A stretch of DNA of 64,000 bases from Neocallimastix lanati (nom. inval.) (taxonomy: Eukaryota; Neocallimastigomycota; Neocallimastigomycetes; Neocallimastigales; Neocallimastigaceae). Below the pieces are notes generated by a model. The model saw nothing but the letters and a program-made list of their open reading frames with translations. It searched no databases and was not told the DNA's origin. Every line of letters begins with the position of its first letter. The stretch's first letter is position 1. The stretch is from the NCBI GenBank assembly GCA_016946835.1, contig JACVTC010000045.1, positions 156,501 through 220,500 on the forward strand, written 5' to 3'. Shown here one piece after another: positions 28,976 to 64,000 of the stretch. Both the position numbers and the translations under genes were made by a program.

Positions 28976-30463
28976 ATGCTTGGAATGAAAATTTTAAGGT
29001 AAATACTTCCTTACGATTTTATTCTCTTCTCCTTTTATTTATAGTTAAATTAATAAATAATAATTAAAAAATATTAAATTCAATTAATAATATTGATATA
29101 AAATAATATTACTCTAATATATTATCAGTAGTATAAAAAAAAAAGATTAAAATAAATATCAATATATCAAATATTTAATATTATTACAATAGATTAGTCT
29201 TAATTCATAATTAATAATTAGTAATTGACAATTAAATAATAAATATCCTTAACATTTTAACATTTATTTATTTTTTTATTCAACTTTAGTCTTGTTGTTG
29301 TCTTATTACTAAGTAATATTAGACCTACAAAAGCAGATCCTGTAACTGTAACAACAGGTAAATTAAACTAAATTTTTTATTTTTTTTTTTTTTTGACCTA
29401 TTCATTAAAATATTTATGAGATATATATTGAATTTTTTATTAAAAAATTATTTATTATGTTCTAAACTAATTTAAAGATTTAACCGAATGTTCAAGTGCA
29501 ACTATTCAAAATTGCAATTCTACTAAAACTGCTAGCAAATATTGCTATAAAGATGACAAAATTTTCACATTAGATGAAGATGGCGCTTGCACTATTGAAG
29601 AAGCAATAACATTAACGGCTGGAATTAAAATATTTGATTTTACAACAAAAGCTGAAGCGGTGACGACCGGTGCACTTGAAAATTTAGACACCATTGTTCT
29701 TTTTAATTGCGTTGAAAATAGTACAGTGACATGTAAGAGAACCTATGGTTACGTAAAAACTGATACTAAGTCTTATCGTATTGGTGCTGATGGAAAAAAT
29801 GAAGAGGTCGTAAGAGGACCCGCTGACACTACATCAGGAGTTTTAAATCCAGCTAACTTCAAATTAAATGTATCAGGAGTCTCTAAACTCTTAGAGGGAT
29901 ATTTAGATTCCGATGTTTTCAAATTAAATGTAGAGAATGGGTTTGAATTTGTTGATTCTGGTTATATTGATTCAGTCTATTTAGTTGAATTAGCAGATAA
30001 TGGTATATACTTATCCACTGAAGATTATAATACAGCCATTGCTGCTTCTAAAACTCATATTGCTATCAACGCTGTCAGGAATGCTTTTGTTTTTGATAAT
30101 ACTTATGAAAGTATGAATTTAAAAATTATTTATTATATTATTTAATATTATTTAATAATAATTATTATAATGATGATATTATTTATTTTCATTATAATAG
30201 TTGAATCTAAATAGATATTAAAATTATATTTATATGATTTTGATTTATTTAAATTTTTTATTTAATAAAATAAAAAAAATATAATAATAATAACAAAATT
30301 ACTTGAATATTACCTAAATGAAGAGGAAATAGAATGTGCCTTACATTATACTAGTAGTTTTTTAAAGCTTGATATAAAATATAAGTCCGCCAATAGTAGT
30401 CCCTTCGACAGTTTATACAGTTGTACGAATGGTCTATGTAAAATATCATTTGGTAAAATCGGT

Positions 30464-30507
<44 letters not shown>

Positions 30508-33500
30508 ATTCATATAAAAAAAATTAATATATATCAATTTATAGGAATTCAAACGAAATAAAATTATATTTAATTTTAATATTTTATTAAAAATATAAAA
30601 AAAAATATTTTAAAAAAGGTAATTTTATTAATCAAATGAAAATTAAATTTATATGTATTTTCTTTTGTATCATTTTTAAAAAGTAAATAGTTAAGGCTGG
30701 TAAATACGTTTTTAAATATACTGTTGGATATCCGTTAGATTTATATATTTGTGAAGGTAATCCAATAATTTGTGAATATGAAGATGGAACTATTGATGGT
30801 ATTAAGGTTTTCAAAAAATATATCGATGAAAATGGTAATACTTTGTTCAAATTAATTGAAAATTTAGATTCTCTCGATCCTGAAAATGAAAAATATCAAA
30901 TATACCATTGTAAAAATAGTTACTGTGATCGTACCAGTGGTTATATGAACTATGGAAAAGATCTCGTTAATACATGTAAATGTACTGAAAATGATAACTG
31001 TACTGTTCAATCTGGAACAGATGAGACAGGATTAACAGGAAATGCTGGTTCATTAAAATACTCAGGCAGTGGTTTTACTTATACTGTTAAAGGTGGTGAA
31101 CCGAAAGATATTACTAGTGATAATGACTATTTCTTTGTTGATTTAAATTCCAATTATGATTACATTCTATTCAGCAACGCAAACTTTGTAGCTTTTGATA
31201 AATTTGGTAAATTTATTTAAAAAAAAAAAAAAAAAAAGATATTCAAATTAAAAATATAATTAAAATTAAACAAAGAATTTTATAAAAAATAAAAAAAAAA
31301 TATATTACTATTTTATTAATATTTATATAAATATATATTATTTAATTCCATTTTTTAATTTTTTTAAATTTATTTCACCTTATATAATTATTTTTTTTTA
31401 TTATTATTATAACTAACAATTTATATTTATATTTATTATATATAATTCATATTTAAATAATTTTTTTTTAATTAAAAAAAAAAACAATAAAAAATGGAAT
31501 ATAATTTTTATTTATGTGTAAACTAAAATTTAGTTAAAAAAAATTTGGATTATAGCATATACATCACTATTAGTACAAATGTCGTTGGTAAAGGTGCTGA
31601 AAATTGTAATTCTAATATTTATTATAGTTATGTCATTGATTATACTGAAATAAATAGTTATTATTCATTTGCATGTAAGTTATTTTTAATAAAAATTACA
31701 AATATAATTTAAACTAAAATATTAAATAACGAATTCTTTTAAGATATAAAAATTACTATATTCGTTTTTGTAGAATATATTTTAATTTTTAATTTTTTAT
31801 TTTAAAAAAAAAAATCAATATCTATATATTAAACCTTTTTTATTTTTTTTTTTAAAAAAAAAAAAAAAAGGTAAAAACCCTGAGGCCACTACTGGAAATT
31901 GTAATTATTGTTTTTCTTCATATCAAATTTAAATTATTTATTTATGTTAATTATAAAAATATTTCATAATTTAGTTTTTATTTGTTTTTTAATTTTATTT
32001 TAATTTTTATTTTAATTTTCATATTCTTAATTAATTACAGTTTTGACAGAATGTGAAAAGGCAACTAATAAAAGTTGCAGTTCAGGTAAAGAGGCAAGCA
32101 AGTATTGTTATAAAGATAACAAAATCTATTCATTAGATGATGATGGAGCTTGTACTACTGCAGAACCAATAACCATATCATCAAAGGAAGGGGTTAAAAT
32201 TTTTGATTTTACAACAATGAAAGAAGCTGATACTACAAGCGAACTTTCAAATTTAGAAAAAATTGTACTTTTTAATTGCTCTTATGATGATAGAAGTGGG
32301 TATATTCAATGTGTAAGAACCTATGGTTATGTAAAAACTGGTAATAAGTATTATCGTATTGGAGCTGATGGAAAAAATGAAGAGGTTGTAGAAGGAAACG
32401 CTGATACCACAACTGGAGTTTTAAATCCTGCTACTTTTAAATTAAATATTGAGGATGGTGTTGAATTTGTTTCTGATGACAATGCTTCAAACTATTTTGT
32501 CAAATTAGCAAATAATGGTATATTTTTATCCGTTGAAGATTATAATAATGCCATTGTTGGATCTAATACACATATTATAATCAAGGCGGTCAGTAATACT
32601 TTTATTATTGAAAATTTATATGGTGGTATGAATTAAGTTAAAAGAATTATATATTATATTTTTAAATATTATTTTTATAATACCTACTATAATAATATTA
32701 TTTAATTAAAATAAATTGAATAATAAATATTTTAATATTAATTTTTTTAATTAAAATTTAATATATTGATATAAAAAAAAAATAAAACAAATAAAAGGAG
32801 AATTCTATGCCTTAAAATCTAAATATATTAATTCAAGTAAGGTTATTGATTCCTTCGACAAAGTATACATATGTAATATTGATGGTCTATGTAGAATATC
32901 TGTATCAATTGGTAAATTTTTTTTTTTTGTTTTTTAAAATTTTTTTAAAATTAATATTTTAATTCTTATATAATAAAAAGTTTTAATATTTATATATATA
33001 TAAATTTATACGAATTCAAACTAAATAAAATTAAAATAAACTTTTTTTATTTAATGAAAAATAAAAAAGCATATTTTAAAAAATAAAATTTTATTAATCA
33101 AATAATATATATATATAATATTAATATTATATCATTATTAAAAATTAAATAGTTGAGACTGGTATATTTAATTTACATAATCGTCTTTATGTTTGTGAAG
33201 GTAATCCAATAGTTTGTAGTAAAGATGATGGAACAAATGATGGTTTAAATGTTTTTAAAGTATATGATCTTGACGGAAATGGTGATATTTTACTCAAATT
33301 AACAGAAGATTTAGCTTCTGTCGATCTTGAAAGTGAAAAATATCAATTATTTAATTGTAAATCTGCTGATTGTAGGAGTACCAAAGGATATATCAAATAT
33401 GGAGAAGGTTTCTCTAGTATAGGAAGATGTCCTAATAATGCTGATTGTACTGTTCAAGCAGAAGCAGATAATAAAGGACTTGAAGGACTTCACAGTATCC

Positions 33501-36383
33501 ATAGTACATTAAAATACTCGGGTACTGGTTTTACTTATACAATCCAAGACGGCTCACCTAAAGATATTACATCTGGTAATGATTATTTCTTTTTATATGA
33601 AGGATATGATTATGATTACATTAGCTTCAGCAATGAAAACATTGTAGCTTTCAATACCAATGGTAAATTTATTAAAAAAAAGTTTCAAAAATTAGAAAAA
33701 AAATAAGAAATAAATAAAAAAATAGTTTTTTCATTATTGTTTAATTTTATTATCATTAATTTTGTGTTTTTTTTTTTAAAATTTTTTGATTGCTTTTTTA
33801 AATTTATTTTCAATTTTATAATTAGTTTTATTTATTTATTTTTTTCATATATTTTTTATAAATAATTTATATATTTTTACATTGATAATATTAATAAAAA
33901 ATTTTTAATTTACGCTTTTTTAATTTTTTTTTTTTAATTATACATTAAAATTTTAAAGTTGAAAATAAATCTATATACATCAATTCTAACACTAATATTG
34001 TTGCTAATGGAACTGAAAATTGTAATTCTGATATATATTATCGTTACATCAATGCTTATGGAAATTTTGAATTTGATTCAGCTAAATGTAAGTATTTTTG
34101 ATAAAAATAAAATGTACAATTTAATCTTCTGAACCCTATAAAAAAAATAATGGGGTATTAATTATTATAAGATTATTTTATTTTAATTTTCATTTTAAAA
34201 GAATATATTTTAAATTTATATTATTTCTTTTTTTTTTTTTAAAAAAAATAATTAATAATTATATATTATAATTTAATAATATTTTTTTCACATAAAAAAA
34301 AAGGTATAAATCTAGGTTTCAATTGTCCATTGTCAAATAATAATGCAATCATAGATGATATTCATACATTAGATGAAAATGGTGCTTGTTCTACTGTACA
34401 AGAAGTAACATTAACAGAAGGTGTTAAAATATTTGATTTAACAACAAAAGCTGAAATTAAAGTTGCGTACGACCTTTCGAATTTAGAATCAATAGTTCTT
34501 TTGAATTGCTTTTATATTGGCAAAATTATGCAGTTTCAATGTAAAAGAACCTATGGTTATGTTATGACATATAGCGATGAATATTTTAGAATTGGAGCTG
34601 ATGGAAAGAATGAAAAGATTGAATTTGGAGACCCTGACACCACAGTTGGAGTTTTAAATCCAGCTACCTTCAAATTAAACATATCGGGAGCTGTTAATTC
34701 CAATGGTAAAGTTTTAGATCTAGCTACTTTCCAATTAAACTTTGAGGATGGTGTTGAATTTAGTGATGAATCCAGTGCTTCTGTCTATTTAGTCAAATTA
34801 GAAGATAACGGTATATTTTTATCTTCTGAAGATTATAATACTGCCATTACAAATTCTAAAACTCATATTTGGATCATATCTGTTAGTAATACTTTTGTTT
34901 TTGATAACATTTTTAATGGTATATATATTACGATTTTATAAACAGCATTTTAAGTTTTGGATTAAATTAAATTATGTTTTTTTATATTATTTTTAAAGTA
35001 ATTATAATAATAAATATTAATTATTTACTTTAATTAAAATATTTGAATCTTTAATTATTAACAAATATAATTAATATTATTATAATATTTTTTAATTATA
35101 TATTAATTTAATAAAATGAAATAAAAAAATAAATATAAAAATAAAATAAAATTACATATATATCATATAGATGATCAATTGTGTGCCTTACTTTTAACTG
35201 ATAGTTATATTTCAGTGAATAATAGAATTGGATATTATGATTTTGAACTATGTGAAATACCTATATCATATGGTAAGTTTTTTTTTTTTTTATAATAATT
35301 CTAAATTTTTTTTAATTCAATTCAAAAGAATTAAAATTAAATTTATTTATTGTATAAAAAAGATAAAAAAAAATAAATGTATTAGAAAAAAAAATTTCAT
35401 AAATATTAATTTTTAAATCCGTAAATTAAAATTTAAATTTTAATTTTTTTTTTTATTTTTAAAAATCAATATTCATTTATTATTATTATAATTTTTTTTA
35501 TGTCATATCTAAATTAATTATTACTAAGAGTTAAAAAAATTTATAATTTATTCTTTTTTTATTTTTATTTTTATTTTTTTTATTTATTTTATTTTAATTT
35601 TATTTACTCATTACGTATAAATATATTTATATAATACCATTTAAAGCTACTGAAAATGAAAATGAAAATGAAGAAGAAAAAGAAGAAGAAAATAAAGAAG
35701 AAAATGAAAATGAAAATGAAAATGAAAATGAACAAGAAAATAATAAAGAAAATGAAGAAGAAAATGAAGAAGAAGATATAGAAATAGAAAATGGTGTTAT
35801 TGGCTATATTATTTCTGATGAAAATAATATTTCTATTTGTAAACGAAATTCAAAGAATATAATTTGTGAGGAATATACAATTACGGAAACCTCATGTACT
35901 TCAGATAATATAGGAAAATTATTTAAAAATAATGAAAAGAATTCTAATGAAAAGACTTCTAGTGAAGAAACTCCTAATGAAGAAACTCTTAATGAAGAGA
36001 CCACTAATGAAGAAACTTCTAATGAAAAGATTTCCATTTGTCTCAACTATTCAGATAAAGAATATAGTGTAGAATTAAATGATGGTAATCAAGGAAATTA
36101 TGTATTATATAAATCTTCTACTACAAATGAAATTTTCGGTACCAGTTATAATAAGCCATATGTTATTATTACTGTTAATAAGGACTCTGTTTTATTAAAT
36201 ACTAAATACACAAATGGATTAAGGTATGTATATATTAATAAGGAAGGAAGTTCAGCATCCTCAATGTACAAAATCATGAATAAAGGAGATAACTGTCCAA
36301 AGGATATAGAAAATTCATCAGTTTTGATTGAAGAAAGTATATTAGAATTAGAATGTGACAATGGATTATGTTCTGAACCTTGA
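28976..36383 (+). CDS. gene A: secreted scaffoldin-like modular protein, 14 exons
   Basis: Exons by eye: 28976-28998, 29290-29357, 29478-30110, 30333-30452 (or from 30324), 30691-31206, 31534-31674, 31871-31900, 32041-32625, 32798-32911, 33153-33662, 33959-34087, 34304-34918, 35171-35272, 35647-36383. The total is 4323 nt (1440 residues) with no internal stop. Exons 1-2 make the signal peptide MLGMKILSLVVVLLLSNIRP, then TKA. The first intron is phase 2 and all others are phase 1. Module order is A-B-C-D-linker, A-B-C-D, A-B, C-terminal. Module A has the core CKRTYGYVKT...YRIGADGKNE. Module B is a short cysteine unit ending G-L-C. Module C has ICEGNPIIC and DYFF. Module D has a GAENCNS core. 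The last exon begins with Glu/Asn repeats and ends ELECDNGLCSEP. There is no membrane anchor, so the product is probably soluble and secreted. Its function is unknown; the resemblance to scaffoldin repeats is in the style of cysteine and Gly-Tyr motifs. Confidence 0.75.
35656..35790 (+). repeat. Glu/Asn coding microsatellite in gene A
   Basis: Repeats of GAAAAT, GAAGAA and AAAGAA encode an (E/N/K)-rich linker at the start of the last exon. The gene B counterpart is longer. Confidence 0.85.
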
Positions 36384-36436
36384 AATATTTTATTTCTTTA
36401 TTAAAATTAAAAGTAACATAATTATTAAAATATTAA

Positions 36437-36620: not shown

Positions 36621-36654
36621 TGCTTTTTATTTGAAATTAACTTTTTATAATTTA

Positions 36655-40722: not shown

Positions 40723-43700
40723 ATGTTTGGAGAGAAGCTATTCAAGTAAATATTTCTTTATGATTTTATTCTCTTTTCCCTTTACTTATATTAATAAACA
40801 GTAATCAAAAACTAAAAATAAATTCAATTAAAAATATTAATATAAAATAATATTATCCAAATGTATTATTAATAGTATAAAAAGAAAAGATAAAAAAAGA
40901 TCAAAATAAATATCAATAAAAAAAATATTTAAAATTATAAGTCTTAATTCAAAAATAATAATTAGTAATTGACAATTAAATAATAAATATAATAATAAAT
41001 ATTATTAACATATTAACTTTTATTTACTTTTTTTTTTTTTTTTTTTTTTTATTCAATTTTTAGTCTTATTGTTGTTTTATTACTAAGTAATATAAAATTT
41101 ACAAAAGCAGAACCGGTGACTGTAACTACAGGTAAATCAAACAATCAAACAGAAAATTTTTGATTTATTTTTTGACCTATCATTCATTTAAATATTTATG
41201 AAAAATATTTGGAATATTTTTAATAAAATAAAATATTTATTGAATTTTTAATAAATTTAACAGATTTAACGGTATGTTCAAGTGTAACTATTCAAAGTTG
41301 CATTTCGACTAAAGCGGCTAGTAAATATTGCCATAAGGATGACAAAATTTACACATTAGATGAAGACGGCGCTTGTACTACTGAAGAAGCAATAATATTA
41401 ACGGCTGGAATTAAAATATTTGATTTTACAACCAAAGCTGAAGCAGTGACGACTGGAGCACTTGAAAATTTAGCCACCATTGTTCTTTTCAATTGTACTG
41501 AAAGGGACACCGTGACATGTAAGAGAACCTATGGTTATGTTAAGACTGATACTAAGTCTTATCGTATTGGTGACGATGGAAAAAATGAAGATATTTTAAC
41601 AGGAAAAGCTGATACCATTACAAAAATGTTTTTATGGTGTAAATTTTTTTTTTTTATTTTATTTTAAAAATTTTTTTTAATTCATTTAAAATAAAAATAT
41701 ATAAATATTTTTTTTTTGAATTCATGAGTAATAAATTAAAATAAACTTATTTTTTATATTATAAAAAAACTACCAGCTTTTGCTTTTAATCTTGGTAAAT
41801 TTTATTTTTTTATTATATTTCATTGCAAAAAAAATTTTTTTTAATTCATATAAAATAAAAAATATATACTTATATTTATTTATTTTAATTCAAAAGAAAT
41901 AAAATTAAAATAATCTTTTTTTATATTGTGAAAAAAAAATTTTTTTTTTCACAATATAAATGTAATAATATAAATTTAATAAATATATATATTTTCTGTT
42001 GTATCATTATTAAAAATTAAATAGTTGAAAATGGAAAATATATTTTAAATGATACTCTTTATGTTTGTAGTACTATTCCAATAGTTTGTATTATGGATGA
42101 TGGAACTAACGATGGTATTAATGTTTTCAAAGAAAATGACAATAAATATTTTATTATAAATGCTGGAAAACCTTTTGTTCAACTAACTGAAGATTTAACT
42201 TCTATCAGTCTTGAAAGTGAAAATTATGTATTATTCGATTGTAAATCTGCTGTATGTATCCGTACTAGTGGTTTTATCAAATATGGAGAAGATTTCTCTC
42301 GTATAGGAATATGTCCTGAAAGTTATGAATGTTATAATACTAATCAATCTAAAGAATATATAATTTATAAAAACGCTGGAAAATTAAGTTTATCAGGTAC
42401 TGGTTTTACATATACTATCAAACACGGGGCATTTGAATATGACACACCTAAAGATATTACTATTGGTAATGATTATTTCTTTGCTTATGAAGAATATGAT
42501 TACATTAGCTTCAGAAATGCGAACATTGTCGCTTTCGCTAAAAATGGTAAATTTATTTAAAAAAAATATTTAAATTATAAAAAAAAAAATAGGAATTTAA
42601 AAAAAAAAATATAGCATTAAAAAATAAGAAATAAAATAATAAAAAACTTTATTTTAATTTTTTTTTGTTATTTTACTATTAGTAATTTATATATATATTT
42701 TTAAATTACTATCTATATTTTTATAATTAATATAAATAATTCATATTCATTAACTTAAATAATATTTTTTAATAAAAAATTATTTTCCTTCTAAATTTAA
42801 AAAAATAAAAAAAAAAAAAAATGGGAATTTTATTTTGATGATATCTATATAAACTAAACTATAGAAGTTAATGAAGATTTTGATGATATCTACATTACTA
42901 CTAGTACTAATGTTGTTGGTAAAGGGGCTGAAAAATGTAATTCTAATACTTACTATCATTATGTTATTCGCAATAATTTCATTAGGTTTGATTCAGGTCC
43001 ATGTAAGTACTTATGATGAAAATTTGAAAATACAATTTAAACTATTAAACTCAATGGGAAAAAATATTGAATAGAGATTTTGACAGAATTCATTAATTTT
43101 TATATTCAATTGAATAAATTACATCTTAATTTTAACTATTTCTTATAAATTAAAAAAATTAATATCTGTTTATTATATTTTTATTTTTATTTTTTTTTAT
43201 TTTTTTTTTTAAAAAAAAAAAACAGGTAAAAATCAAGTCGACTCAAGTCCATTACCAGATAATACTGAAACTAGCAATGAAAATTGTAATTACCATAATT
43301 ATACTTTTTTATATCAAATATTGATGAACTATTACTAAAGTTTAAAATATTATTTTATTCATTATTTAATTTTTATTTTAATTATACTTTAATATTTTCG
43401 TTATGTTTATTTTATTTTAATTTTTAATTTAATTATTATAATTTAAATTAATATACAGTTTTAACAGAGTGTGGAAAAAGAATTATTACAGGTTGCACCT
43501 CTACTAAAGCGGAAAGCACATATTGTTATAAAGATGACAAAATCTATACATTAGATGAAGATGGAGTTTGTACGACTGCAGAACCTATAGAAATACCATT
43601 TAAGGGTGATATTATAATTTTTGATTTTAAAACAAAAGCAGAAGCAGATACTACTGATGCACTTAAAAATTTAGATTCCATTGTTCTTTTTTATTGCTTT

Positions 43701-46700
43701 TATAACTCTAGGGGTTGGTTGAATCAATGTAAAAGAACCTTTGGTTATGTTAAAACGGATAATAATAGGTATTATCGTATTGGAGCTGATGGAAAAAATG
43801 AAGAGGTTGTATCAGGAGATGCTGACACCTCTATTGGAGTTTTAAATCCAGCTACTTTCAAATTAAACATATCAGGTATCCCTAGTCCAGGAGACAAAGT
43901 TATGGATCCATCTACCTACAAACTAAATATAGAAAATGGTGTTGATTTTGTTTCTGATGGCAATGGTTCAAGCTATTTTGTCGAATTATTCAATAACGGT
44001 ATATTTTTATCCTCTGAAGATTACAATACTGCCAATGCTGTTTCTAAAACTTATATTGTGATCAGAACTGTTAGTAATACTTTTTTTTATATTAATTTTA
44101 TTTCTGAAGGTATAAATTAAATTAGAAGAATTAATTATTATAATTTTTAGTATTATTTTTATAATTATTATAACGAAGACATAACTTATTTTTATTAAAA
44201 TTGTTGAATTTTTATATTCAAATAATTCTTTTATTTATACTATTTTTTTAATAATATTTTAAATTTTATAAAATTAAAAAAAAAAAAATAATAAATGAAT
44301 ATCACATAGATAACCAACAAGTGTGTTCCTTACACTTAACTAATAGTAGTTTAGTGTATTATGGAATTGATGATTTCTGTATGGGATCCTTCGACAGTAT
44401 ATACAATTGTTGCAACGATGGTCTATGTGAACTATCCGTATCATTTGGTAGACTCATTTTCTTATCTTTTTTTTTTTTTTTTTTTTTTTTTATTTTTTTT
44501 CACTTCATAAAAAAACTTTTTTAATTTATTTAATATAAATATACTTTTATAATTTATTTGCAATAAAATTTAAATTACCTTTATTATTTTAAAAAAAATA
44601 ATAATAATAAAATTTTTAAAAAATATTATCATTCTAATTGATATATATATATATATATTTTCTATTGTATCCTTACTTAAAAGTAAATAGTTGAGACAGG
44701 TAAATATATTGTAAATGATGATAGTTTTTATGGTCTTTACGTCTGTAATGGTAATCCAATAGTTTGTACTAAAGATGATAAAAATGGTGATGAGGTTTAT
44801 GTTTTTAAAGTATTAAACAACGGAAATAAAACCATGATCAAATTAATTGATGATTTATCTTCTGTCGATCTTGAAAGTGAAAGATATCAATTATTCGATT
44901 GTAAATCTGCTATTTGTACTCGTACTAGTGGATATATCAAATATGGAAAAGATTTCACAAGTATAGGAAGATGTCCTTATGATGCTGATTGTACTCATCA
45001 AGTAGAGGCAGATAATATAGGATTTGAAAGATATTCATCCATTTCCCATGGTATATTAAAATATTCAGGCAATAGTTTTATTTATACAATTGAAAGTGGC
45101 CAATCTAAAATTGTTACTTCTGGTAATGACTATTTTTTTGTTAAGGATGGATACTATGATTACATTAGATTCAGTAATCCAAATATTGTTGCTTTTGCTA
45201 AAAAAGGTAAATATATTAAAAATAAAATTCTTTAGATATTTAAAAAAAAAAAAAAAGAAGATTTAAATTACAAATAAAAATTAAAATACAAATAAAAATG
45301 AACAAAAAGTTGTTTTTTTATTATTTTTTCTTTTTACTATTATTAATATTTTTTTTAATCTGAAAATCATATATATATATACTTTTTCTTTTTTTCTAAT
45401 AATTCTTTTATATTAATATTTAATTTAATTTCAAAAATTTTTTTTCATTTTTTACTAATTATATATATTTTTTGTATATATTTATTACTAATAATTCATA
45501 TTTATTAATATAAATAATATTATTAAAAAAAAATGGAATTTCATTTCTTTCTTTTTCGATTAAATAATATTTAAAAGTTAGATCTGATATTTATATCACA
45601 ATTAGTACAAATGTTATTGGTAAAGGAGCTGAAAAATGCAATTCTGATATTTATTATCATTATAACATTTATAATGACCAAGAAATTATGGATAGTTACC
45701 CATGTATGTATTTATGATAAAAAATAAAAATATAAAATCAATCACATTATTCAAAAAAAAAAAATAATAATAATTATTGATTTTTATTAGATATTTTTAT
45801 ATTTATTTTCATTTTAATAGAATATATTTTAAATTTCTTTTTTTTTATTAAAAAAATAATTGCACTCATTAATTATATCCTTTATATATTTTTTTTAAAA
45901 AAAAAAGGTAAAAATACCGAAATAATCCCTGGAAATTGTAATTATTTGAGTTATTTTTTTTATATCATTTTTAATCTATTTATTATTATAATTTATGAAA
46001 AAAAATTTTTTTTTATTTTATATTTTTTTAATTTTTTCTTATTTATTTAATTTTAATATTATTTACCTATCACGTATAAATATATGTATATAATATCACT
46101 TTAAAGCTACTGAAAATGAAAATGAAGAAGAAAAAGAAGAAGAAAATGAGAAAGAAAATGAAGAAGAAAATAAAAAAGAAAGTGAAAGTGAAAATGAAAA
46201 TGAAAATGAAAATGAAAGTGAAAATGAAAATGAAAATGAAAATGAAAATGAAAGTGAAAATGAAAATGAAAATGAAAGTGAAAATGAAAATGAAAATGAA
46301 AATGAAAATGAAAATGAAAATAAGGAAGAAAATGAAGAAGAAAATGAAGAAGAAAATAAAGAAATAGAAAATGGTGTTATTGGCTATATTATTTCTGATG
46401 AAAATAATATTTCTATTTGTAAACGAAGTTCAAAGAATATAATTTGTGAGGAATATACAATTACGGAAACCTCATGTACTTCAGATAATATAGGAAAATT
46501 ATTTAAAAATAATGAAAAGAATTCTAATGAAAAGACTTCTAATGAAGAGACCACTAATGAAAAGATTTTTATTTGTCTCAACTATTCAGATAAAGAATAT
46601 AGTGTAGAATTAAATGATGCTAATCAAGGAAATTACGTATTATACAAATCTTCCACTACAAATGAAACTTTCGGTACCAGTAATAATAAGCCATATGTTA

Positions 46701-50027: not shown

Positions 50028-50289
50028 TTGTTTGGTTATGTAGATAAGGCTAATACCTTCTACCTCGCTGAAAATAGTTCTAGTGCTAGTATCAGTGATA
50101 TTACTGAAACTGGTTACTATATCAATGGCTATACCGCTGGTTATTATTGTAATAGTACTGGGTTAGGGTTAATGCAAAAAAAACTATCCGTTGGTTCGAA
50201 TACATGTGGTGAAATAGGAGGTTTATTTGCAAAATCCAATGAAATGTACATTGGTCTTAATGGTAGTAAGAGTGTCAAATTAAAATATG
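50028..50289 (+). pseudogene. fragment of a scaffoldin-like module
   Basis: An open stretch reads FGYVDKANTFYLAENSS, then ETGYYINGYTAGYY, then a CGEIGGLF segment. This is the module A (TYGYVK) and GYYIN style of genes A-D and the giant protein. It begins mid-module with no acceptor site that I can place, and ends abruptly at about 50290 where minus-strand copia sequence starts. A telomere-like tract (GGGTTAGGGTTAA, 50160-50172) sits in the middle, right after the GYY repeat. Probably the remnant of a broken relative of genes A-D. Confidence 0.65.
50160..50172 (+). repeat. telomere-like repeat inside the scaffoldin-like fragment
   Basis: GGGTTAGGGTTAA, opposite in orientation to the tract at 49929-49942. 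Confidence 0.6.
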
Positions 50290-53200
50290 TTGTTCTTGGA
50301 TTAATCGATTGGTTTTTTGCATTATAGATTGCGGCTTTATTGTCTATGTTGACTTCAATACCACTGATGTTGTATTTTAATTCCTTCAATAAATTTATGT
50401 ACCACATGCAATGTTTGCTACATTCGCTAAGACTATAATATTCGGCCTCAGCTGTGGAAGTCGATACACAATGCTGTAGTTTTGAACACCAACTAGAAGG
50501 TGAATCTCCTATTGTAATTACAAATCCTGTAGTCGATCTTCTTGTTTTTGTGTCCCCAGCGTAGTCTGCATCTACGAAAGCTTTGACATTTGAGTTTCTT
50601 GATATGTTAATACCATATTTTATTGTTCCCTTTAAATATTTTAATATTCGTTTTAAATTTTCCCAATCTTCCAAGTTAGGTTCTTTTGATTTTTGTGCCG
50701 CTTTGGATACTGTATATAATATATCGGGTCTAGTACAGATACCTAAGTATAATAAGCTTCCAACAGCGCTTCTATAAGTAGTTTCATTCATTTTCGTTTT
50801 TCTTAATTCTTCATTTTCAATTGGTGTTATATTACGAATAGGAGTAGCACTTGACAATCCATATTTGATAATTATATCGTTTATATATCTTTCTTGATTT
50901 AAGAAATAACCGTTTTAATGCTTTACAAATTTTATTCCTATTATGAAATTGACTTCACCGATTTCTTTTATTTTGAATTTATTTTTTATCATATTTTTGA
51001 TTTGATCTACTTTTGCTTTGTTACCTGCAAGTAGTATATCGTCCACATAAACAGCTATGAGGCATGTAATCTTGTTATGTTTATCTGTTGTAAAGTATAT
51101 ACATGGTTCACAAGTCAATCTTTTGAAGCCAATGTTTAGTAGATGCCCATTTAATTCATTGTTCCATTCCATTCCGCTTTGCTTTAAACCATATATGGCT
51201 TTCTTGAGTTTCCAGATGTATTTCTTGTGATCGGGATGTCCTTTTGGAGGCTCCATGTATATTTCTTCCTTTAGATGAGCGTTTAAATAAGCAGCATTAA
51301 CATCTATTTGTTCTATTTGGAAATTATTTCTTGCAGCTATATGTGTAAATATTCTTATCGAATCTAGTTTTAAGGTGGGTACAAATGTATCTTTATAGTC
51401 TATTCCATGTTGCTGTGTGAACCCTTTTGCTACAAGCCTTGTTTTTCTTTTGACTATGTCCCCTTTAGAATTTCTTTTGTATTTGAATATTAGTCTGGAT
51501 TTGATAATATTAGCTTCTTCTGGGATTTCATCTTTATTTACTTGTTCATAAACTTTTAGGTCTCTCAAGTTGCCAAATTCATTTTCAGCAGGTTAAACCA
51601 TTCTTCTTGATCTTCGAGGTTGTATATATCGTCATAGTCTAAAGGTTCTCTTAAATTTTTATTTAATACTTGATTGTTACATATAAAAGTATTATTATTG
51701 TTAGGTGTTTGGTTTCCTTTAACTTTATTGTTTTGGTTGCTTATAATACTGTTGATATTCATATCGTTTGTTTCAGAATGAATGTTCGTATTTAAATGAT
51801 TGTTGTTGTTTTTTGTTTGATTAGTGTTGATGTTATTATCATTGCTTTGAGTAGTATTAATAGTGTTATTTTGATTATTATTGATGTTGTTATTTTTGAT
51901 AGTGCTGGTAACTTTGCGTTGATTTGTGCTATTAGTTGTATTTAGAGTAGAAGTGTTATTAGTGTTTTGGTCTTTTCCTTGTTTATTGAAATGAACTGTG
52001 TTTTTGTTTATGCTGTTTTCTGGAATAAATATTGATGCTGGTTTTGCGTTAATAGGATTTTTTGTGTAAGAGTTATTGTAGTAATAAGAACTACTATTCC
52101 CCCAAATTTCATAATTGGGAATAAAATTTTGATGGTCAGTACAGAAATTAGTCGTATAAAAATCTCCAGGATTGGATTCAAAAAATTCAACACTACGTGA
52201 GAGTATTATTTTATTGTTAGATGTGTCTAAAATTTTATAAGCTCTGGGGTTATCTGAATAACCAAGAAAAATACCAGGAGAAGCATTATTTTGAAATTTT
52301 GTTCTAAATGATTTTGGGATGTAGTAATAGACTTTACATCCAAATACTCTTATATTTGAATAATCTACTTTTGATTTGTTTAGCCGTTCATATGGTAAGA
52401 TGTTGTTGATTCCACGATGTGGTAGTCGATTATGTATATAATTAGAGGTGTGAACGGCGTCTTCCCAAAAGTGTTTACTCAGCTTAGCATCGTTAAGCAT
52501 TACTTTGGCAGATGAGATTAGAGTTCCATTGAATCGCTCAGCTCTTCTATTTTGCTGAGGATTGTGTGGAACAGTAAATTGTTGAATGATTCCGTAAGAT
52601 TGACAGAAGTCCTTGAAGTTATTATTGCGGAATTCCGTACCATTATCAGACCGTAAATATTTTATTCTAGTATTGTACAAATTTTTTACGTTATTGAACC
52701 ATTTATAAAAAGCGGGAAATGTATAATCTTTACCTTTTAGAAAAAGAACCCATCCGTATCTAGAGTAATCGTCTAAAATAGTAAAAAAATATTTGTTTCC
52801 GTGAATGGATTCAGGTAATGGACCTACCAAGTCCAAGTGTAGTAGTTCAAAGATATGCTTAGTTGTATTGATATTTTTTGAATAAGGTTTGTTTTTAATC
52901 TTGGATTGAGCACATAGAGGACATTTTAATTTGATATCTGTCTTAAGTAATTTGTTTTTAATTGATTTTATATCGAAGTGACTAAACCTTCTGTGCCATA
53001 AATTTAATTTATCAGGAATCTTCATGTTAATATAGTTGATTTCATCATTTGTGTTTCTGGTATTATTGTCGTGTAGAAATATACGTTGGGTTGATAACCA
53101 AATGTTGAATGTGTTATTTGCATTTGAAATAATATTGGCGATTTTGTTTTGGTATTTGTCATAGATCGTGACATATGATTTGTTGTGATTGGTGTTAAAT

Positions 53201-54640
53201 AAAATTTTATAATTTTGTTTAATTAAGTTTCCAATTGATATTAAATTTTTATTGATTAATGGTGAGTAATAAACATCTTCGATTGTAAATTCGTATTCAT
53301 TAATGTATCCTATGAAGGTGCCTACTTTATTAATGATAATCGATTGATTATTTGTAAAAAATATTTTTTCATTGCAATATTTAATATTTGTGAGTTTATC
53401 TAGTCTGTTGGTGATGTTGATTGAAGCTCCTGAATCTAAGTCCAACAGATTAATTCTTTATTAATAGACTTTATTGATTTATTTTTATTATCTATTAAGT
53501 CTATAGTATTTGATTCATTTGTGTTGTAATCTTGAGAAAAACACTCTGCATATATATCGTTATAGTTGTTTCTTTGAATGTTATCTATAACCTTTTTGTT
53601 TTTTATATTTGATTTATTATAATTGTTTTTTCTTTTAAAATTTGTATTGCTTCGTCTTCTTAATTGGTTTCTTTTTCTTTTAAAGCAATTGTAAAAGAAA
53701 TGCCCTCTTTTACCACAGTAGTTGCATTTTATATTTGGTCGTTTTGTATTTTTATTGACATTCTTGATGTATCGTTTTGATTTTTCTTGATTCTTTTTGT
53801 ATGTACTCTCAGTTGAAAAAATGTTTTTATTATTGTTTTCTTTAATGTAGTTTGATTCTGTTAGATTGGATAACAAGATTTGTGGTATTACATTTTTTAC
53901 ATAATCGGTACATTTTTCCCAATCACTGTTGTATTGAAATACATTGATGAATCGAAGGTTTTCCGGTAGCGCCCTATTCAAAATACCGACTTTTGTGCTG
54001 GTGCTTAGATCTTCATCTATTTTTTCTAATTCTTCAATAGTGTTTTGAAGATCTGCCATAAATATATTTATATCTTGTTTTTCTTCGAACTTTAACTCGT
54101 TTAGTTTTTTCTTTAGTTCTAACTTTCTAGATTCCTTTGATTTAGTAAATGATTTCTCTAAGAGTTTCCAAACTTGATGAGCTGTTTTTCCATTTCCCTT
54201 TACTATTTCTTGAGTCTTTTCTCCTAAGATGTTAAATATCATCCACTTTGCTGTAATATCGTTGTTAATGTCATTTTCATTAGTATTTTTAGCATATACT
54301 AATGTGTTGTCAAATTGGTCTTCCGTGTAGTTTAATATGTCCTCTTTGATGTCTTTCTTTCTTAATTTCTTAATTTTTTCTTTAGTGGCGTAAAGTACTA
54401 GATCATTTATGGTCAATAAATAAAGGATGTTTCCTTTCCATCTCGGATAATTTTCAGTTGTTAATTCAATTACTCTATTGAAATTCTCAGAGTAATTGAA
54501 ATTCACTATCTTCCTTGGATTGTCAGTAGCTTCCACGTTGATTACTTGATTAATTCTTCTTGGTGTCATTTTATTCTTTATTAATAATTGAAGTAATATT
54601 AATATATCTTATATTTAATTTTTAAAATTGTTTTAAATTA
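50290..54640 (-). mobile_element. Ty1/copia element, broken and truncated
   Basis: On the minus strand, starting with a gag frame whose ATG is at 54567-54569, the parts are in copia order: gag with a zinc knuckle, protease, GAG-pre-integrase, integrase, Asn/Thr-rich linker, reverse transcriptase, RNase H. The protein is clearly related to the element at 0.2-5.1 kb but is a separate lineage copy. The coding part has about three breaks. The end of RNase H and the right LTR are missing at the junction with the scaffoldin-like fragment near 50290. No left LTR could be defined past 54600. A fossil of moderate age: younger than the RNase H relics at 36.7 and 47.9 kb, older than the first element. 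Confidence 0.92.

Positions 54641-55287: not shown

Positions 55288-55339
<52 letters not shown>
55288..55339 (+). repeat. 52-base T homopolymer
   Basis: An unbroken T run followed by A6. It is the longest homopolymer in the window and may be affected by assembly error. Confidence 0.85.
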
Positions 55340-55346
<7 letters not shown>

Positions 55347-56134: not shown

Positions 56135-59100
56135 ATGTTTGACAACATAATTTTAAGGTATGCAACTAAAAAAAAAAAAAAAAAAAAAAATTAAATTTTA
56201 TTTCTTAGTATATTCATTTTTAGTAGGATGATTAAAAAAAGAATGGATTTATAAAAGTAAAAAATTTTTATAAAATCCCATTATATTAATAATCATTAAT
56301 GAATATATCTAATAATAAAAAGAGCAATTTATAAATAATGATTATTATAAAAAATATTTTTTAAAATAAATGAAATAACGATTTATTAAAAGTGAAGAAA
56401 TTAAAAGAATTAAATAGTAATACTATTTCATTAATCCATTGTTCTATTTTTACAATAGTTTAATTGGACTTTTATTGCTTGGAAGTCAAATTTTAATGGT
56501 GCAAGCTGTAGATGGTGATTGAATTATGAATGAAATAAAAATTTTTTATTATATAAATTATTCTTTTATTTTTTTTTTTTTTTTATTTTTCTAATTTAAT
56601 TATTTAAATAAATTTGAAAATATAGCTCTTACAGGTTGTACTAGTGATGAAAAAGGATATTCAGAAAGTGAAATAACACCTTCTACTTATTGTCTTGATG
56701 GTACAAACATTAATGGAATTAATACTAATGCAAGGAAAGTTATCGGAAAAGGTGTCTATTTATTTAGTAGTAACCAATTAGTAGAATTTGGAGATGCAGC
56801 TGACAATGGAGCATATTCTATGTATGTCTGTGATGAAAACAGTAAGTGTGTCAGAACCTACGGTTTTATTAAGAAAGATGCAACCACTTATTATGAAATT
56901 AAAAACGACAACTCTGCCGCCGTAGATGCGTCTACCACAGCAAATACAGAGAAAGCAGATAGTAAATGTACTGCTGGTGAACTTTATACCAATGGTTCAG
57001 TGAAACTTTGTCTTGCGACTGGAACGGGCGTTGCTTTTGCTTCCGATGATGATCATATTACAAATTACCTCATGAATAATGTTGGTACAGATACAGGAAC
57101 TACGGTCTTCACAGCTACGGGTGCAAATTCAAAACCAAAAATGATCATTCGGGCAGGAACTACCTCCTTTGTTTTGAACACTGCCATCACAGGTAATTTG
57201 CAAGAATAATATTGTGCTGAAAATATTTTCATTATTGTCCAAAAGCCAAAAAAAAAAAAAAAAAGAAAAAATAATAATATTTTCGACCATTTTTCATTAA
57301 TAGTTTAATCTTTAATTTTTTTTTTCTATTATATAATCTTATTTTTTAAAGATAAGGAATACGAATCATGTACTGATAATACCGTCTTAACAAGAAAGCA
57401 ACAATTTTGTTCGGGTTCTATTTTAAATCTATTTTATGATTGTCAAGAAGGTTTATGTACTCTTGATACTGGAAATGGTGAGTGTCTTTTTAAATATAAA
57501 ATAAATATATCATATATATATATACATAAAATATCATATAATTGAAAAAATAAATAAATTAATTTAAGACACTGGCCATGAAATTTTTTCTTTATTCATT
57601 TAAATTTTATTCAATGCTAACAATTATTATTTTTTTATCTATGTTTTTTAACTAATTTTATTATCATTATTGATGATTTAATAACTTTATTTTTTTTATC
57701 TATTACAATTAATTTTATTATTATTTTTTTTTTTTATTTTAAAAAAAATTAGTTCAGGGAACTTTATTAGTGGAGGGTAAATTGTATTCTTGTAATGGAG
57801 GTACTTGTCAACTTTTAGAAAATGTACAAGGAACAGGCGTTTTCGTCTTTCAAGACGATCCTGACGATGAGACTTATAAAACCTTACTAACTGATAACGA
57901 AGTTGCTGCTTTATCCAATCTTGGTGATGTGCATCTCTATGATTGTTCATTAGGTATCTGTGTTCCAACCTCCGGTTATGTTAAATATGCCACTAGTACT
58001 AAAATTGGTGAATTTAATGCTTCAGGTGCTTACACTTCTGATAAAGATACAGAAGAGTGCGACTCAGCAGGAAAGATTAATTTAGCTGGAACAGACTTGA
58101 AGCTCTGTATTTCCAGTGGTAATTTAGTTGGATCATCTGAAGCCAGCGGAAAGATTGGATATATTGTTGGATCATCTTTATACAAAATTACCAGTAGTAT
58201 TATTGCGATTTCAAAGCACGGTTAGTTTTTTTTTTTATACTCTTTTATAATTATTGTGTAATAACATAATAAATTCGTCATACTAGAAAGTGATGGAGAT
58301 ATGTGTATTAATAATTGACTAATATTAAATTTATTTTTTGTGATATTTTCTATTTTTTTTTTTTCATTAAAATTAGATGAAAGCTATTTCAATAGTGCTA
58401 CAAATAAGATTACTAATTGTACTAGTGGAACTTGTGAAGATGACAATTCAACTGGTGGTTTCTACTTTGTTTATGATGTTGCAGTCAATACAGCTAAAGG
58501 ATTATACAACTGTGATGCATCCACTCATGAATGTGCCAAGGAAAGTACTATTGGTCATGGATACTACTCCCATGAAGGATTAATCACCCAAATATTAATA
58601 TGTGATGGTAACACCTGCTCTGAAACTGATGATCTTACCAAATCAGATTGTACAAATAGTGCTGATAAGTATAAGATCATTTACCATAGTGGATTACAAT
58701 ACTGCAATAATGAATCTGAAATTGTTCTTTCCTCCGTGACCACTAAGAAATATTATGCTATTCCAGATGTTTTAGGCTCATCTATTACTTATCCCACTAG
58801 TTTCACAACTGATACAAATAGTAATCATATTGTTGTTGAAGTTCAAAAATATGCTGTCATTCAATATGTCAGTGCCACTCGTAAGTACCTATAGTTTTCT
58901 ACAAAAATTAAATTAATACTAATTATATATGTAGAGATGAACTTATTCGGTTGACTTTAAATTAATTATTATTTTTTTTTTCTATTAAATTTACGAAATA
59001 GCTTTCTGTATTCGTAGTGATGCTTTTGTCGCTGAAGGAGAATGTAATAATGGAGAAATAAAGTATACTTGCAGTAATGCTACATCTCCATGTAGTGAAG

Positions 59101-60046
59101 AATCTGTTTCTCTTTCAGCCTGTACTAAGGATACTGCAGAAGAAAGATGTACGTAGAATTACTTTTTTTTCTTTTTTTTATTTATGATACACTTTTGAAA
59201 TTATTATATATATTATTTTACAATATACTAATGTAATGTATTGTACTTTTAAAAAAAAATAAATAATAAATTACATTTAAATTTTTTTTCAAAATTCTTC
59301 GTGAAAATTAACAATTCAATATTTTAAATATAATTATATCTATTATACTATGAACTGTTATAAATAGGTAATGGTTTCTATCTTGATAATACAAACTTAG
59401 TTAACTGTTCCAATGGTTCCTGTGATTCCCCTTTATCACTCAAGGGTTACTTCAAGTCCCCAAGTGGTATGAATATAAAATGTACTACAACTGATGGATT
59501 AGCTTTTACCTGTGCTGATGCAGATTCCATTACCGACGATATTTCTTCTCTTACTGGCGAAGTTTGTACTGTAGGTAAATTAATTAAAGATGGTGATATT
59601 ATCAGCCTCTGTGTTGACGGAAAAAAGGCCAATGCCCCACAAATATTTACAACCAGTACTGATAAATACTTTATTCCGGCTTCTATTTTATACACTGGAA
59701 AAGGTGAAAAATTGCACTTCATGATTTCCATTGATGAAAAGAGTGTTCAAGTGGTTGATATCACTAGTAGTAAGTTCATAGTTTGATTTATTTTTTACAT
59801 TTATATAAATTTTAATGAATTCTTAAAAAAAGTATTAATTAAAGAATTTTTTTTTATTATCATTTTTGTTAATACTTTACTGTGTTTAAATTGATAGCTT
59901 CCAAAAAGTATAGATATACTTTTGCCAATAAAAAGGTTTTAGTGAAGAAAGCCAACCAGTGTACAGCTGATTCTGGTTCTACTATCAATGATTTAGTTGA
60001 ATTTTCTTCTCCGGATGCAACAGAAGACACTTACACTATGCAATAA
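56135..60046 (+). CDS. gene C: secreted scaffoldin-like modular protein, 9 exons
   Basis: Exons by eye: 56135-56157, 56459-56514, 56626-57192, 57352-57477, 57753-58220, 58377-58880, 59002-59148, 59368-59769, 59898-60046. The total is 2442 nt (813 residues) with no internal stop, TAA at 60044-60046. The signal peptide MFDNIILSLIGLLLLGSQIL, then MVQA, is split by a phase-2 intron after 23 nt. All later introns are phase 1. Exon 3 is a module A relative (CVRTYGFIKKDATTYYEI). Exon 4 is a module B relative (CQEGLC). Exon 5 has IYDCSLGICVPTSGYVKY-like spacing. Exon 6 has repeated C-x4-C units and GYY/GHGYYS. The module order begins as in genes A and B and then differs. Coding sequence is less A/T-rich than its surroundings. 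The last exon has no membrane anchor. Function unknown; probably soluble and secreted. Confidence 0.78.
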
Positions 60047-62187
60047 ATCAATTTCATTTTGTAAATAGTTTCTATTATAAGACATTTATTTATTACATAA
60101 AATAAACTTATCAAAAAAAAAAATTTTTATTTTAATTCATTATTGTTTTATTTTTTCATATGAAAGGGTTCCTTTGTACTTTATTGAAACCATATTTTAA
60201 AACAATTGAATATGTATTATATAAAAAATTCAAATTTTATTTAAAAATATTTATTTTAATGATGAATTGAAATAATGTTTATATTCTTTAATAATGAAAA
60301 GTAATTGTTTATTAGTATTTAATATATTTAATGAAAATTTTGATGTTTAGAAGTAAATTTTTAAGATTTAAAAAAAAAAAAAAAAAAAAAAAAAGAAAAA
60401 AAGGTAATTTATGAAATTAAAAATTATGATTGATAATTTGACTATTTATTTTATTTCTTATTAAAAAAATATTAAAAAAATATTATAATGAAATAATTTA
60501 AAAAGAGTGTAATAAAGTAATAAAATGTTTTTTTTTTTCTTTTACTTAATAAGTAATGATATTTCATAAGCGATCAATAAAAGTTTCAAAGAATGGAAAG
60601 AAAAAATTTTATTAATCATGCAATTAACTTGTTATATTTATTTTGATAAGAAAAAAAATAATACTATAATTATATATATTTTTATGATTAATAGTTAAAA
60701 AACAAAATTTATATATAATAAAAGATATTGACAAGTAAATAATAATCATTTTAGATTCCATATATTAATAATTTTATTAATAAAACTTTGTGTTAATAAA
60801 ACGGTTTCTCTTTTTATATTATTTTTTTTGTTTATACATTTAATCAGTATTATAATGAATGAATAATATAAGTCGAATCCTCATTTTACTTATATTTTTC
60901 TATAATTCAGTATATTATTCATTTTTTGAAATAATATAAAATATTTTATTTCATATAGAAATCGTTATAAAGGTAGTTTCAATAAGTCTTTTCTGTTTAT
61001 AAATAATATTATTCATTTATTTAATAATATTAATTATAATTAAATTAACAATTTTTTAATAATTATAATTTTTTTTATTTTTACTATTATTTGTATTTTT
61101 CATTTTTAAAATAAAAATATAATATTATTTAATAATGAATTTTTATTACCTGTATTTTCATAATTTCTTATGGTTACTGTTTAATAGTAACTAATTTAAA
61201 TTATTTTTTAATTTATTTTTTTAAAAAAAAAAAAAATTATATTCAATAATAGGAATAATAAAAAAGTTAGAATGTCTTTTATTATTAATTGAATAATTGT
61301 TTTTCTATCAATTCAATTACTAAATAATGAGTGTTTAATTCTTAATAATTGTCAATTTTAGATTTATTAAGTTTTTTTTTGTATTATATAAAAATTAAAT
61401 TTATTTATTTAAAATATTAATACATTAATTAATATTAACATATTTATTTATATATTAGTTTATTTACTTATTTATAAATATTTTATTCTATTATTATTAT
61501 TAAGAATATTAATTTAATATTATAAATGAATAAAAATTTATTTATTTAATTTTATATTCATTAACTATTACTATAATTTATTTAAATAATTATTATATTA
61601 TTTATTTATATTTATAAATTTTTTATATTATTTTTCTTCTTTAAAAGTAATTTCGAAATTCCATATAGCATTCATTTTCTCATGAAGTTTAATTTAAATA
61701 TAAAGTACTATTTTATACGTTTTGATTATTAATATCAAACTTTTATTATCATTTTAAATACTATTATTATTATTAATTTCAAAATGAATATAATTTCATT
61801 TTAGCATTTTCAAAAATGTCTATTTTAAAAATATAATTTAAAATCATAATTTTAAATAGTGATGGATTATACATTTTATTAAAGTAATTTTACTTTTGCT
61901 TTACATATGAAAATTTTTATTTCTTTTGCTTTTAATTATCAAAATAATAAAGTTAATTTTGTTTGAAAAATATAAATTTCTTGAAATGTTAAAAAAAAAA
62001 TTTTTTAAAACTCTTAAAAAATAATAAAAATTTTTTATTTAAAACCAAAAAAAAAAAAAAAAAAATATTAAAAAAAATTTTACAATTTTTTTTTTTTTTT
62101 TTGCTGAAAATAATTCATTAATGTATATATAAGTAATTACCTTTTCTGGCGTCAATCTACTTTTTCATATTCAAATATAAAAAAAAA
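60047..62187. other. intergenic between genes C and D
   Basis: A/T-rich with long A and T runs (60369-60396, 62047-62064, 62086-62102) and no coding frame. The part from about 61957 resembles the upstream blocks of genes A-C. No RNA gene is seen. Confidence 0.5.
61970..61986 (+). promoter_or_regulatory. shared upstream block, gene D
   Basis: ATATAAATTTCTTGAAA lies 218 nt before the gene D ATG. It matches genes A-C except for one missing base. Confidence 0.42.
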
Positions 62188-64000
62188 ATGTTCTTTAATA
62201 TGCTTTTAAGGTAAATAGCTCCTTAAATATAAATTTCTTTAAAAATCATGTATATTGTAATTTTATTGATATTAATGATTACCAATATTTCAATATAAAA
62301 AAAATTTAAAAACTTTTGGAACTTTTGCTTACAGTATTATTAGCTTATTATTCCTTGGTAGCTTAAGTGCTGTTAATGCTACAGTAAGTAAGTTGAAGAA
62401 AATATATATTTATTTATTCAATAATAGATTTTTTTTTTATTGTTAATACAATATTTTATAATTTCCCTATTAAATCATATTTACAATTTATATACCGATT
62501 GATATTCATGTATTTGAATAAAAGCTATTAATACTTGTGGTATTGAATGCGTTCCTGAATCAAGTTCTGCTGATGGAATTTGTCTAAAGGAAGATAAACT
62601 CTATCATTCTGTTTCAGGATCTGCAAATTGCATTAAAGACGATGCTGTAGCCACGATGACAGCTGGATATCATATATTTTCAGTTACCGATACCACTGCT
62701 ACGCCTGTAACTAAAGATTCCACAGGATTAATTGCCGGTAATTTAGTACATTTTCAATGTATTAGTGGAGGATGTAAAGTTACTTGTCAAAGAGGAGCAG
62801 GTATCGTTAATGTAGATAGCAAATACTATTCAATTCCAGCGGCTGCCGAAGCTACAGATGAAACAACTTCAATTACTAGTACTAATTCTAATAATGTTAT
62901 TATAAAAAATGCAAGTAGTATTGCTGTTCTCACTCTTCCTACTGATGATGCTTTTCCAGCTGCAGCCACTTCAGAAAAGTCTTATATTTTGAAAAGTAAA
63001 AGTGATGTTATCACTGAAGCTCCATTCGGTGGATTAAACACTAGCAGTGAAGAAGATTCAGGTATTGTTCTTAGTACTAAAGCGATTTCCGGCGACACTC
63101 CAGCCATGCTTGTTTTCAATTCAGCTTTCAACGGTAAGTAGCTCTCCTAATTTCCGAGAGTAAATTATTGTTACTTAAACATTTTATCATTAAATAAAAG
63201 AATAGGATAAATTATGATAAATATATAGCTTTCTTCTGCTTCTTCTCCTGAAATTATAATTTATACTATATCTATTAATTCTATTTGTTTTTTATTTATG
63301 TTTTTAATAAAAGATGAATACTGTGTAACCACGCCCAACTCACTTATCACCGAAAGACCAAAGAACTACTGTGATACTAATGCTTGTGATGACTACTACA
63401 CTTGTAATAATGGTGTTTGTGAAAACACCACCTAATCCTATAATAGTAAATATATTCTCAATATGATTTCATGAAATAATTATACGATTTCTTAAAATAA
63501 TTGTTTATAAAATTGATACAGATAAAGCTAAAGTAATATTTTTATTTGTTTATTTTTTCATTAATATCCATTTATCAAAATTAATATCTAATTGAAAACA
63601 AATAGGAAGAGCAAGCGTAACTCCTCCTTGCGATCCAATTACTGGAACTAACTGTAATTTTCCCTAATTTTTATATATTATCTATTTTATTTTTATTTTT
63701 AAAGAATTCCTTCACCAATAAGTGATAACTAATTCTGTTCTGTAAATTATGATTTTTTTTTGATTTTTTAAATAGGTACTGGTGACGATGATGGCGATTA
63801 CTATTACATTGGAAGTGGGGAATCATTAGCATCTGCTTCTGATTTAGTAACAACAGCCATTGGAGGAAATTTATTTGTTTGTACTATCTCTGGAGGATCA
63901 CTCAGTAGTTGTGTGAAGAATACCTCCATGGCAGGATACATCAAGAACAGTGACGAGGACCATGGCCTTCCAATCATAAAATGTACTATTGGTTCTAGCT
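62188..64000 (+). CDS. gene D: secreted scaffoldin-like modular protein, 3' end outside the window
   Basis: Exons by eye: 62188-62210, 62335-62387, 62525-63133, 63314 to 63403 or 63412, 63606-63653, 63776 onward past the window end. The signal peptide MFFNMLLSIISLLFLGSLSA, then VNA, is split after 23 nt by a phase-2 intron; later introns are phase 1. Exon 3 is a module A relative (a GIVNVDSKYYSIP segment, then a long Ala/Thr-rich part). Exon 4 is a module B relative. Read straight through, exon 4 reaches the usual GVC end and then a TAA at 63433-63435, giving a 268-residue protein. An upstream phase-1 donor (TGTAATAA at 63404 or GGTGTTT at 63413) is needed to continue into the clear exons at 63606 and 63776 (GDDDGDYYYIGSG). 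Either the gene splices early or it carries a stop. Function unknown. Confidence 0.65.

Follow-up and report, generated by a model that had tools for sequence, protein, structure and literature searches.

A secreted, cysteine-rich gene family of an anaerobic fungus, probably assembled from class 1-1 exons

We analyzed a 64,000-nucleotide (nt) window of the genome of the anaerobic fungus Neocallimastix lanati (positions 156501-220500 of contig C390 in our assembly set G000, which holds 199 Mb in 762 contigs). The window carries four predicted multi-exon genes, here called A to D, and an intronless gene for a giant protein; its G+C content in 2-kb steps ranges from 10 to 37%. Gene models come from a purpose-written gene finder with no parameter for intron phase. 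Codon usage was trained on the open frame at 6445-24618, with intergenic stretches as background, and the GT-AG site tables were re-estimated from the finder's own predictions. In its output for A to D, every intron beyond the first is in phase 1. At exon 1 of B, C, and D the finder was wrong or fell short, and these exons were set by hand from a conserved pattern, a 23-nt first exon followed by a signal exon. Letters below denote exon types, and exon orders are given from exon 2 onward.

6445-24621, forward strand: intronless gene for a giant protein of 6058 amino acids (681 kDa), with 233 cysteines and GYY-type repeats
28976-36383, forward strand: gene A, 14 exons, 4332 nt; intron 1 in phase 2, introns 2-13 in phase 1; order S-X-Y-Z-W-V-X-Y-Z-W-X'-R-cap
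40723-46918, forward strand: gene B, 12 exons, 3459 nt; intron 1 in phase 2, the other 10 in phase 1; order S-X-Z-W-V'-X-Y-Z-W-V-cap
56135-60046, forward strand: gene C, 9 exons, 2442 nt; intron 1 in phase 2, introns 2-8 in phase 1
62188-64000, forward strand: 5' part of gene D, with six exons beginning in the window (62188-62210, 62335-62387, 62525-63133, 63314-63412, 63606-63653, and from 63776); intron 1 in phase 2, introns 2-5 in phase 1

All 37 introns of A to D inside the window are GT-AG; 33 are in phase 1, and the four in phase 2 are the first introns of the four genes, each following a 23-nt exon. Beyond intron 1, phase 1 holds in 33/33 cases, as a preliminary description of this DNA had claimed in stating that exons from the third onward begin and end in phase 1 (class 1-1). 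Its further claim that the summed exon lengths of A, B, and C are exactly divisible by three, without an internal stop, also proved right. Exon lengths in A to D run from 23 to 812 nt. The seventh exon of D ends outside the window, at extended coordinate 64765, and counting the last intron of D, which lies past the window end, the tally is 34/38. Because the exon boundaries share one phase, gain or loss of a whole exon leaves the frame intact. Rescoring with the flanking frames fixed, over sites within ~90 nt of the exon ends, favored the phase of the model in 38/38 introns; 21 have no GT-AG pair in another phase, and in the other 17 the margin was 4.3 to 37.1 nats. The best-scoring site differed from the hand-placed one in two of the 38 (A donor, 30462 versus 30453; B acceptor, 41087 versus 41064), with the phase unchanged.

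The phase rule extends to relatives elsewhere in the genome: Gx (C390:447-455 kb), Gc (C710:876-887 kb), other genes on C710, and members on C41 and C357. Fourteen family models contain 127 introns, of which 114 are in phase 1, 8 in phase 2, and 5 in phase 0, and several of these models run two or three genes together. The five phase-0 calls (C710a exon 6-7, C710b 5-6 and 18-19, C710c 1-2, and C357:811540 1-2) each have a neighboring exon of 2 to 31 nt, and we judged them to be gene merges or false ends. When the count is limited to introns between strongly coding exons, 92/93 are in phase 1. Set aside from this count were copies of the same genes (those on C155, C245, and C265, the C710d copies of C and D, and C710e), the C390y models other than A to D, a single-exon stretch on C90, and three models judged to be non-family or fragments (C710b:867937, C710c:888180, and C41:45002). 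These contain some phase-0 and phase-2 calls, in merged 5' ends, retroelement stretches, and models taken as noise. The distant members on C41 and C357 carry GYY- and Cys-type repeats, with exons of up to 2118 nt on C41. A 23-nt exon 1 ending in phase 2 recurs in seven genes, A to D as placed by hand and C710a:735135, C710b:851799, and the C41 gene as called by the finder; in Gx, C710a:738574, C710c (two models), and C710d:905125 the first exons called by the finder are different and weak, and the 5' end of the C357 gene is open.

As a control we used neighboring exon matches to protein kinases from this genome, scored with the same site tables. Twenty adjacent pairs were taken out of ~25 noted. 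They gave 18 solutions (phase 0/1/2, 12/4/2; L049 and L052 gave none), and removal of two open-through loci (L046 and L057) left 16 resolved introns, distributed 11/3/2. This control is small, comes from genes of another kind than A to D, and includes two loci that look related to each other (L054 and L055). Fisher's test against its 3/16 gives p = 2e-9 for the 33/33 window introns and p = 3e-13 for the 92/93 of the family set, both treating as independent introns that are not. A stricter count takes only the six intron types without detectable mutual homology (SX, XY, YZ, ZW, WV, and V>, in A, B, Gx, and Gc), all of which are in phase 1; by hand arithmetic, six independent draws would give this result with a probability of ~4e-5 at a rate of 3/16 and ~1e-3 at 1/3. 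The only secreted locus readable as a control offers one dockerin exon (L066, reverse strand, 223-415), whose acceptor is in phase 0, and dockerin modules therefore need not obey the 1-1 rule. The genome has at least 150 scored matches to the dockerin family PF02013 (1440 candidates seen).

Exon types and their repetition are clearest in gene A, whose relevant parts are given here with the one intron of B discussed below.

28976-28998, forward strand: A exon 1, 23 nt
29290-29357, forward strand: A exon 2, signal peptide by eye
29478-30110, forward strand: A exon X1, 633 nt, class 1-1, 6 cysteines
30324-30452, forward strand: A exon Y1, 129 nt, class 1-1, donor set by hand
31534-31674, forward strand: A exon W1, class 1-1
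31871-31900, forward strand: A exon V1, class 1-1
34304-35272, forward strand: third cassette of A, X' (34304-34918, V and X apparently fused) and R (35171-35272, Y-like), without Z and W
35273-35646, forward strand: A intron 13, two intron parts joined at ~35480-35491
35647-36383, forward strand: last exon of A, an acidic low-complexity stalk and a cap domain, the cap 90-92% identical in nucleotides to those of Gx and B
41639-42024, forward strand: B intron 3, two Y>Z-type stretches in tandem

In all four genes a stretch that looks by eye like a signal peptide precedes the phase-1 end of exon 2, and in A the intron that follows lies a few residues past the likely cleavage site. The large exons hold one homologous module each and the small ones are linkers. 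The proposal of one cysteine module per exon accordingly stands for the large exons, with 5 to 9 cysteines, and fails for the small Y, W, and V exons, with 1 to 5. The cap domain also occurs in two single open reading frames that are not clearly unrelated genes (L061, 1-4601, and L062, 1-3701), in which a signal-like start is followed by a very long (EEEEN)n or (DT)n stalk and an A/B-type cap.

Introns within a gene resemble each other according to the exons that they separate. Similarity is 0.376 for pairs of the same type (21 pairs) and 0.270 for pairs of different types (181 pairs), against 0.275 for shuffled sequence (p = 2e-10), and likeness among the types XY, YZ, ZW, WV, V>, and SX does not exceed that of shuffled sequences. 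As same-type introns are alike while different types stay at the shuffled level, exons were copied together with their introns. Exons have also gone missing: the third cassettes of A and of Gc lack Z and W with the frame kept. Finally, some blocks are shared between genes. X'-R is common to A and Gc at 83 to 94% identity, intervening intron included, although the last exons of Gc are different. In the blocks X3-R (A and Gc) and W1-V1 (B and Gx) identity rises above that of most of the surroundings, again with the introns, which suggests exchange between paralogues.

Two introns record losses in more detail. In A intron 13 the 5' part resembles the R>O intron of Gc (and weakly the Y>Z type), whereas the 3' part is a complete V>-type intron though no V exon comes before it; a mini-exon has apparently been lost inside. 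We had considered a clean crossover in this intron and dropped it, since the intron consists of two intron stretches joined at the missing mini-exon. Gene B has a shortened first X exon (375 nt) and no Y1. The first 150 nt of its intron 3 are of the Y>Z type (mean 0.393 versus 0.273 shuffled) and not of the X>Y type (0.291 versus 0.286), the last 230 nt are also of the Y>Z type, and no X>Y-type part was found in this intron. Y1 has therefore gone together with the X>Y intron and the end of X1. The type of the first 150 nt rules out an earlier view in which Y1 had been lost cleanly, leaving an X>Y and a Y>Z intron on either side of an 18-nt remnant. Between the two Y>Z stretches lies an 18-nt piece bounded by AG and GTAAAT (41777-41794), which may be only a copied end.

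The giant provides an intronless comparison for one junction. By eye it starts with a signal peptide, and its C terminus is Ser/Thr-rich and hydrophobic; we regard it as a candidate scaffoldin. In searches of two sequences it was matched by profiles of the P exons (E = 4e-10) and the Y exons (E = 3e-7), and a profile built across the X|Y junction from 17 spliced pairs aligned to it at E = 4.6e-10 with a one-residue insertion. The alignment has the first Y residue in columns 77-79 for 16 pairs and in column 74 for the remaining one. Because the profile aligns to the giant across the junction, the predicted X|Y splice agrees with an intronless homologue. An AlphaFold model of giant residues 21-185, from 23 sequences, has a mean predicted local distance difference test score (pLDDT) of 75; the X|Y point falls near model residue 122, in a coil between strands (pLDDT ~63), and beyond it the Y part is weakly modeled. 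An X exon modeled by itself came out poorly (pLDDT 54.7). Structure searches yielded no clear match, no Pfam family reached the cut-off in the six segments tested, and there was no significant PDB sequence match.

Parts of the cluster recur within the assembly as near-identical copies on C390, C155, C245, and C710 (A on four contigs, B on three), and the genes that are broken differ from copy to copy. In the A copies on C155 and C245 all GT and AG sites and the frame are intact, with length changes in the last exon (-24 and -114 nt) that are multiples of three; the A copy on C710 has a 1-nt insertion in exon 8, and the B copies on C245 and C710 are broken by the loss of 4 nt in exon 5. Exons and introns differ at similar rates between A or B and their C245 copies, whereas between A and its C155 copy the difference in introns is 2.4 times that in exons. 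To judge from these copies, the family evolves rapidly and some of its copies are in decay. Copia-like retroelement frames, a family named by eye, lie on both sides of the cluster (window 220-5058 and 50144-54608), the second split into several frames.

The sequence evidence leads us to propose that A to D belong to a secreted, cysteine-rich, scaffoldin-like family whose members are mosaics of class 1-1 exons and have grown by copying, loss, fusion, and exchange of exons and cassettes, a reading to which we assign a probability of roughly 75%. Each gene would open with the 23-nt exon and a signal-peptide exon, the latter bounded downstream by a phase-1 intron close to the probable cleavage site, and every later internal exon would be in phase 1 at both ends. 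Single exons and the five-exon cassette X-Y-Z-W-V would have been copied along with their introns; exons would have been lost from cassettes, adjacent exons fused, and exon blocks swapped between clustered paralogues, possibly by recombination in introns or by gene conversion. The first phase-1 intron may originally have lain at the signal-peptide boundary, and the proteins may serve the cellulosome. Growth from class 1-1 exons is well supported, and the fact that in all four genes the intron close to the likely end of the signal peptide is in phase 1 would fit the idea that such boundaries give rise to phase 1.

Two observations qualify this proposal. Introns were copied with their exons, so part of the phase uniformity is inherited, and the 33 introns are not 33 independent events. 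In addition, the loss of Y1 in B is no clean exon drop, as the X>Y intron and some of X1 are also gone. The earlier idea that whole exons can be added, dropped, or repeated thus stands for the repeated cassettes and the in-frame absence of Z and W but does not describe Y1 of B. Its reading of the family as an animal-type mosaic survives to a similar extent, borne out by the symmetric exons and the phase bias relative to kinases but weakened by that inheritance.

The alternative that fares best is passive tandem copying of one primordial 1-1 exon, without recombination between genes, which we consider possible though not probable. The X, Z, and P modules and the repeats of the giant have a common core, and same-type introns are homologous, both as such copying would predict. 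However, the six intron types are no more alike than shuffled sequence, although old homology could have been erased, and between genes, with introns counted, the blocks X3-R and W1-V1 are more similar than most of the sequence around them. Gc, with the X'-R of A yet other last exons, also speaks against it.

Independent insertion of introns at phase-1 proto-splice sites, such as glycine codons in domain linkers, is unlikely. This explanation has been proposed for animals (PMC8001218), and 19 of the 33 phase-1 split codons here begin with G. Glycine, however, accounts for only 2 of the 33, which leaves the present junctions unexplained by glycine proto-splice sites; moreover, same-type introns are homologous and hence were copied rather than newly inserted, although insertion could still hold for the first introns.

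Symmetry might also be maintained by selection for alternative splicing, with skipped exons yielding isoforms, since each internal exon of A to D from the third on could be skipped in frame. In the window, exon 4 of D contains an in-frame TAA if it extends to the donor used in the C710 copy, which itself reads through, and the modeled donor of this exon is therefore doubtful. The exon is class 1-1, so skipping would leave the frame intact, and the stop could be bypassed in this way. Exon skipping is rare in fungi, and we think this explanation quite improbable.

It is very unlikely that the models are artifacts or the loci mostly dead genes whose phases mean little, as stops and frameshifts in some copies might suggest, given that 38/38 introns score best in the phase of the model, an intronless homologue matches a junction, A, B, and C are open throughout, and dead genes would still preserve a record of past structure. 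The family anatomy, as read from the sequence, is real and well supported. A study of anaerobic fungi warns of little transcript support for introns modeled in another gene family there (PMC6712302).

The closest parallel to the mosaic that we propose is with the class 1-1 extracellular proteins of animals. As described by Patthy (2021, PMC8001218), these share with A to D secretion, a signal peptide followed by a phase-1 intron, internal 1-1 exons, apparently also large exons that correspond to modules, and modules that are repeated or missing. The family here differs in its fungal host, in that no Pfam family reaches the cut-off, and in that its modules give no sign yet of occurring in unrelated proteins. 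That paper calls the cause of class 1-1 predominance among shuffled animal domains mysterious, says that exon shuffling is restricted to animals, and offers glycine-rich linkers and the signal-peptide boundary as reasons for phase 1 (PMC8001218). A literature search by title and abstract, which largely missed subscription journals, found no class 1-1 exon shuffling in fungi among the highest-ranked papers, and it found no literature on intron phase in anaerobic fungi. We tentatively suggest, at somewhat less than even odds, that full class 1-1 shuffling, with a phase-1 intron at the signal boundary, symmetric modules, and block exchange at introns, evolved in this fungal secreted family independently of animals. 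If so, the animal preference for 1-1 would stem from secretion and a signal-peptide intron and from nothing specific to animals. A fungal family that keeps strictly to class 1-1 and has intronless relatives within its own genome would offer an independent case in which to test the cause of the phase bias.

A second comparison is with Tetrahymena, where, according to PMC6564038, more than 98% of the introns before the 90-bp exons of leucine-rich-repeat genes are in phase 2. This is likewise an extreme phase bias outside animals, which its authors credit to clonal exon expansion and exon shuffling; exon shuffling as such is therefore not unique to animals. The Tetrahymena exons are exactly 90 bp and in phase 2, whereas the family of A to D has several exon types of 30 to 2118 nt in phase 1 (PMC6564038).

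The third comparison is with ScaA-type scaffoldins, which PMC8262932 and PMC10978972 describe as large, repeat-rich secreted proteins, as here, and the genome supplies the dockerin matches noted above. PMC8262932 (2021) describes the cohesin of fungal cellulosomes as elusive. No ScaA sequence was found in the sequence sets searched. A, B, and C depart from the ScaA type in coding only 2442 to 4332 nt, and A to D in being spliced and, by eye, lacking a hydrophobic tail. The giant comes closer to the ScaA traits of more than 500 kDa, repeat richness, and anchoring, with its 681 kDa, its repeats, and its hydrophobic tail. Proteins of the A to D family may likewise be scaffolds of the fungal cellulosome, in which case a cellulosome scaffold would have diversified by exon shuffling.

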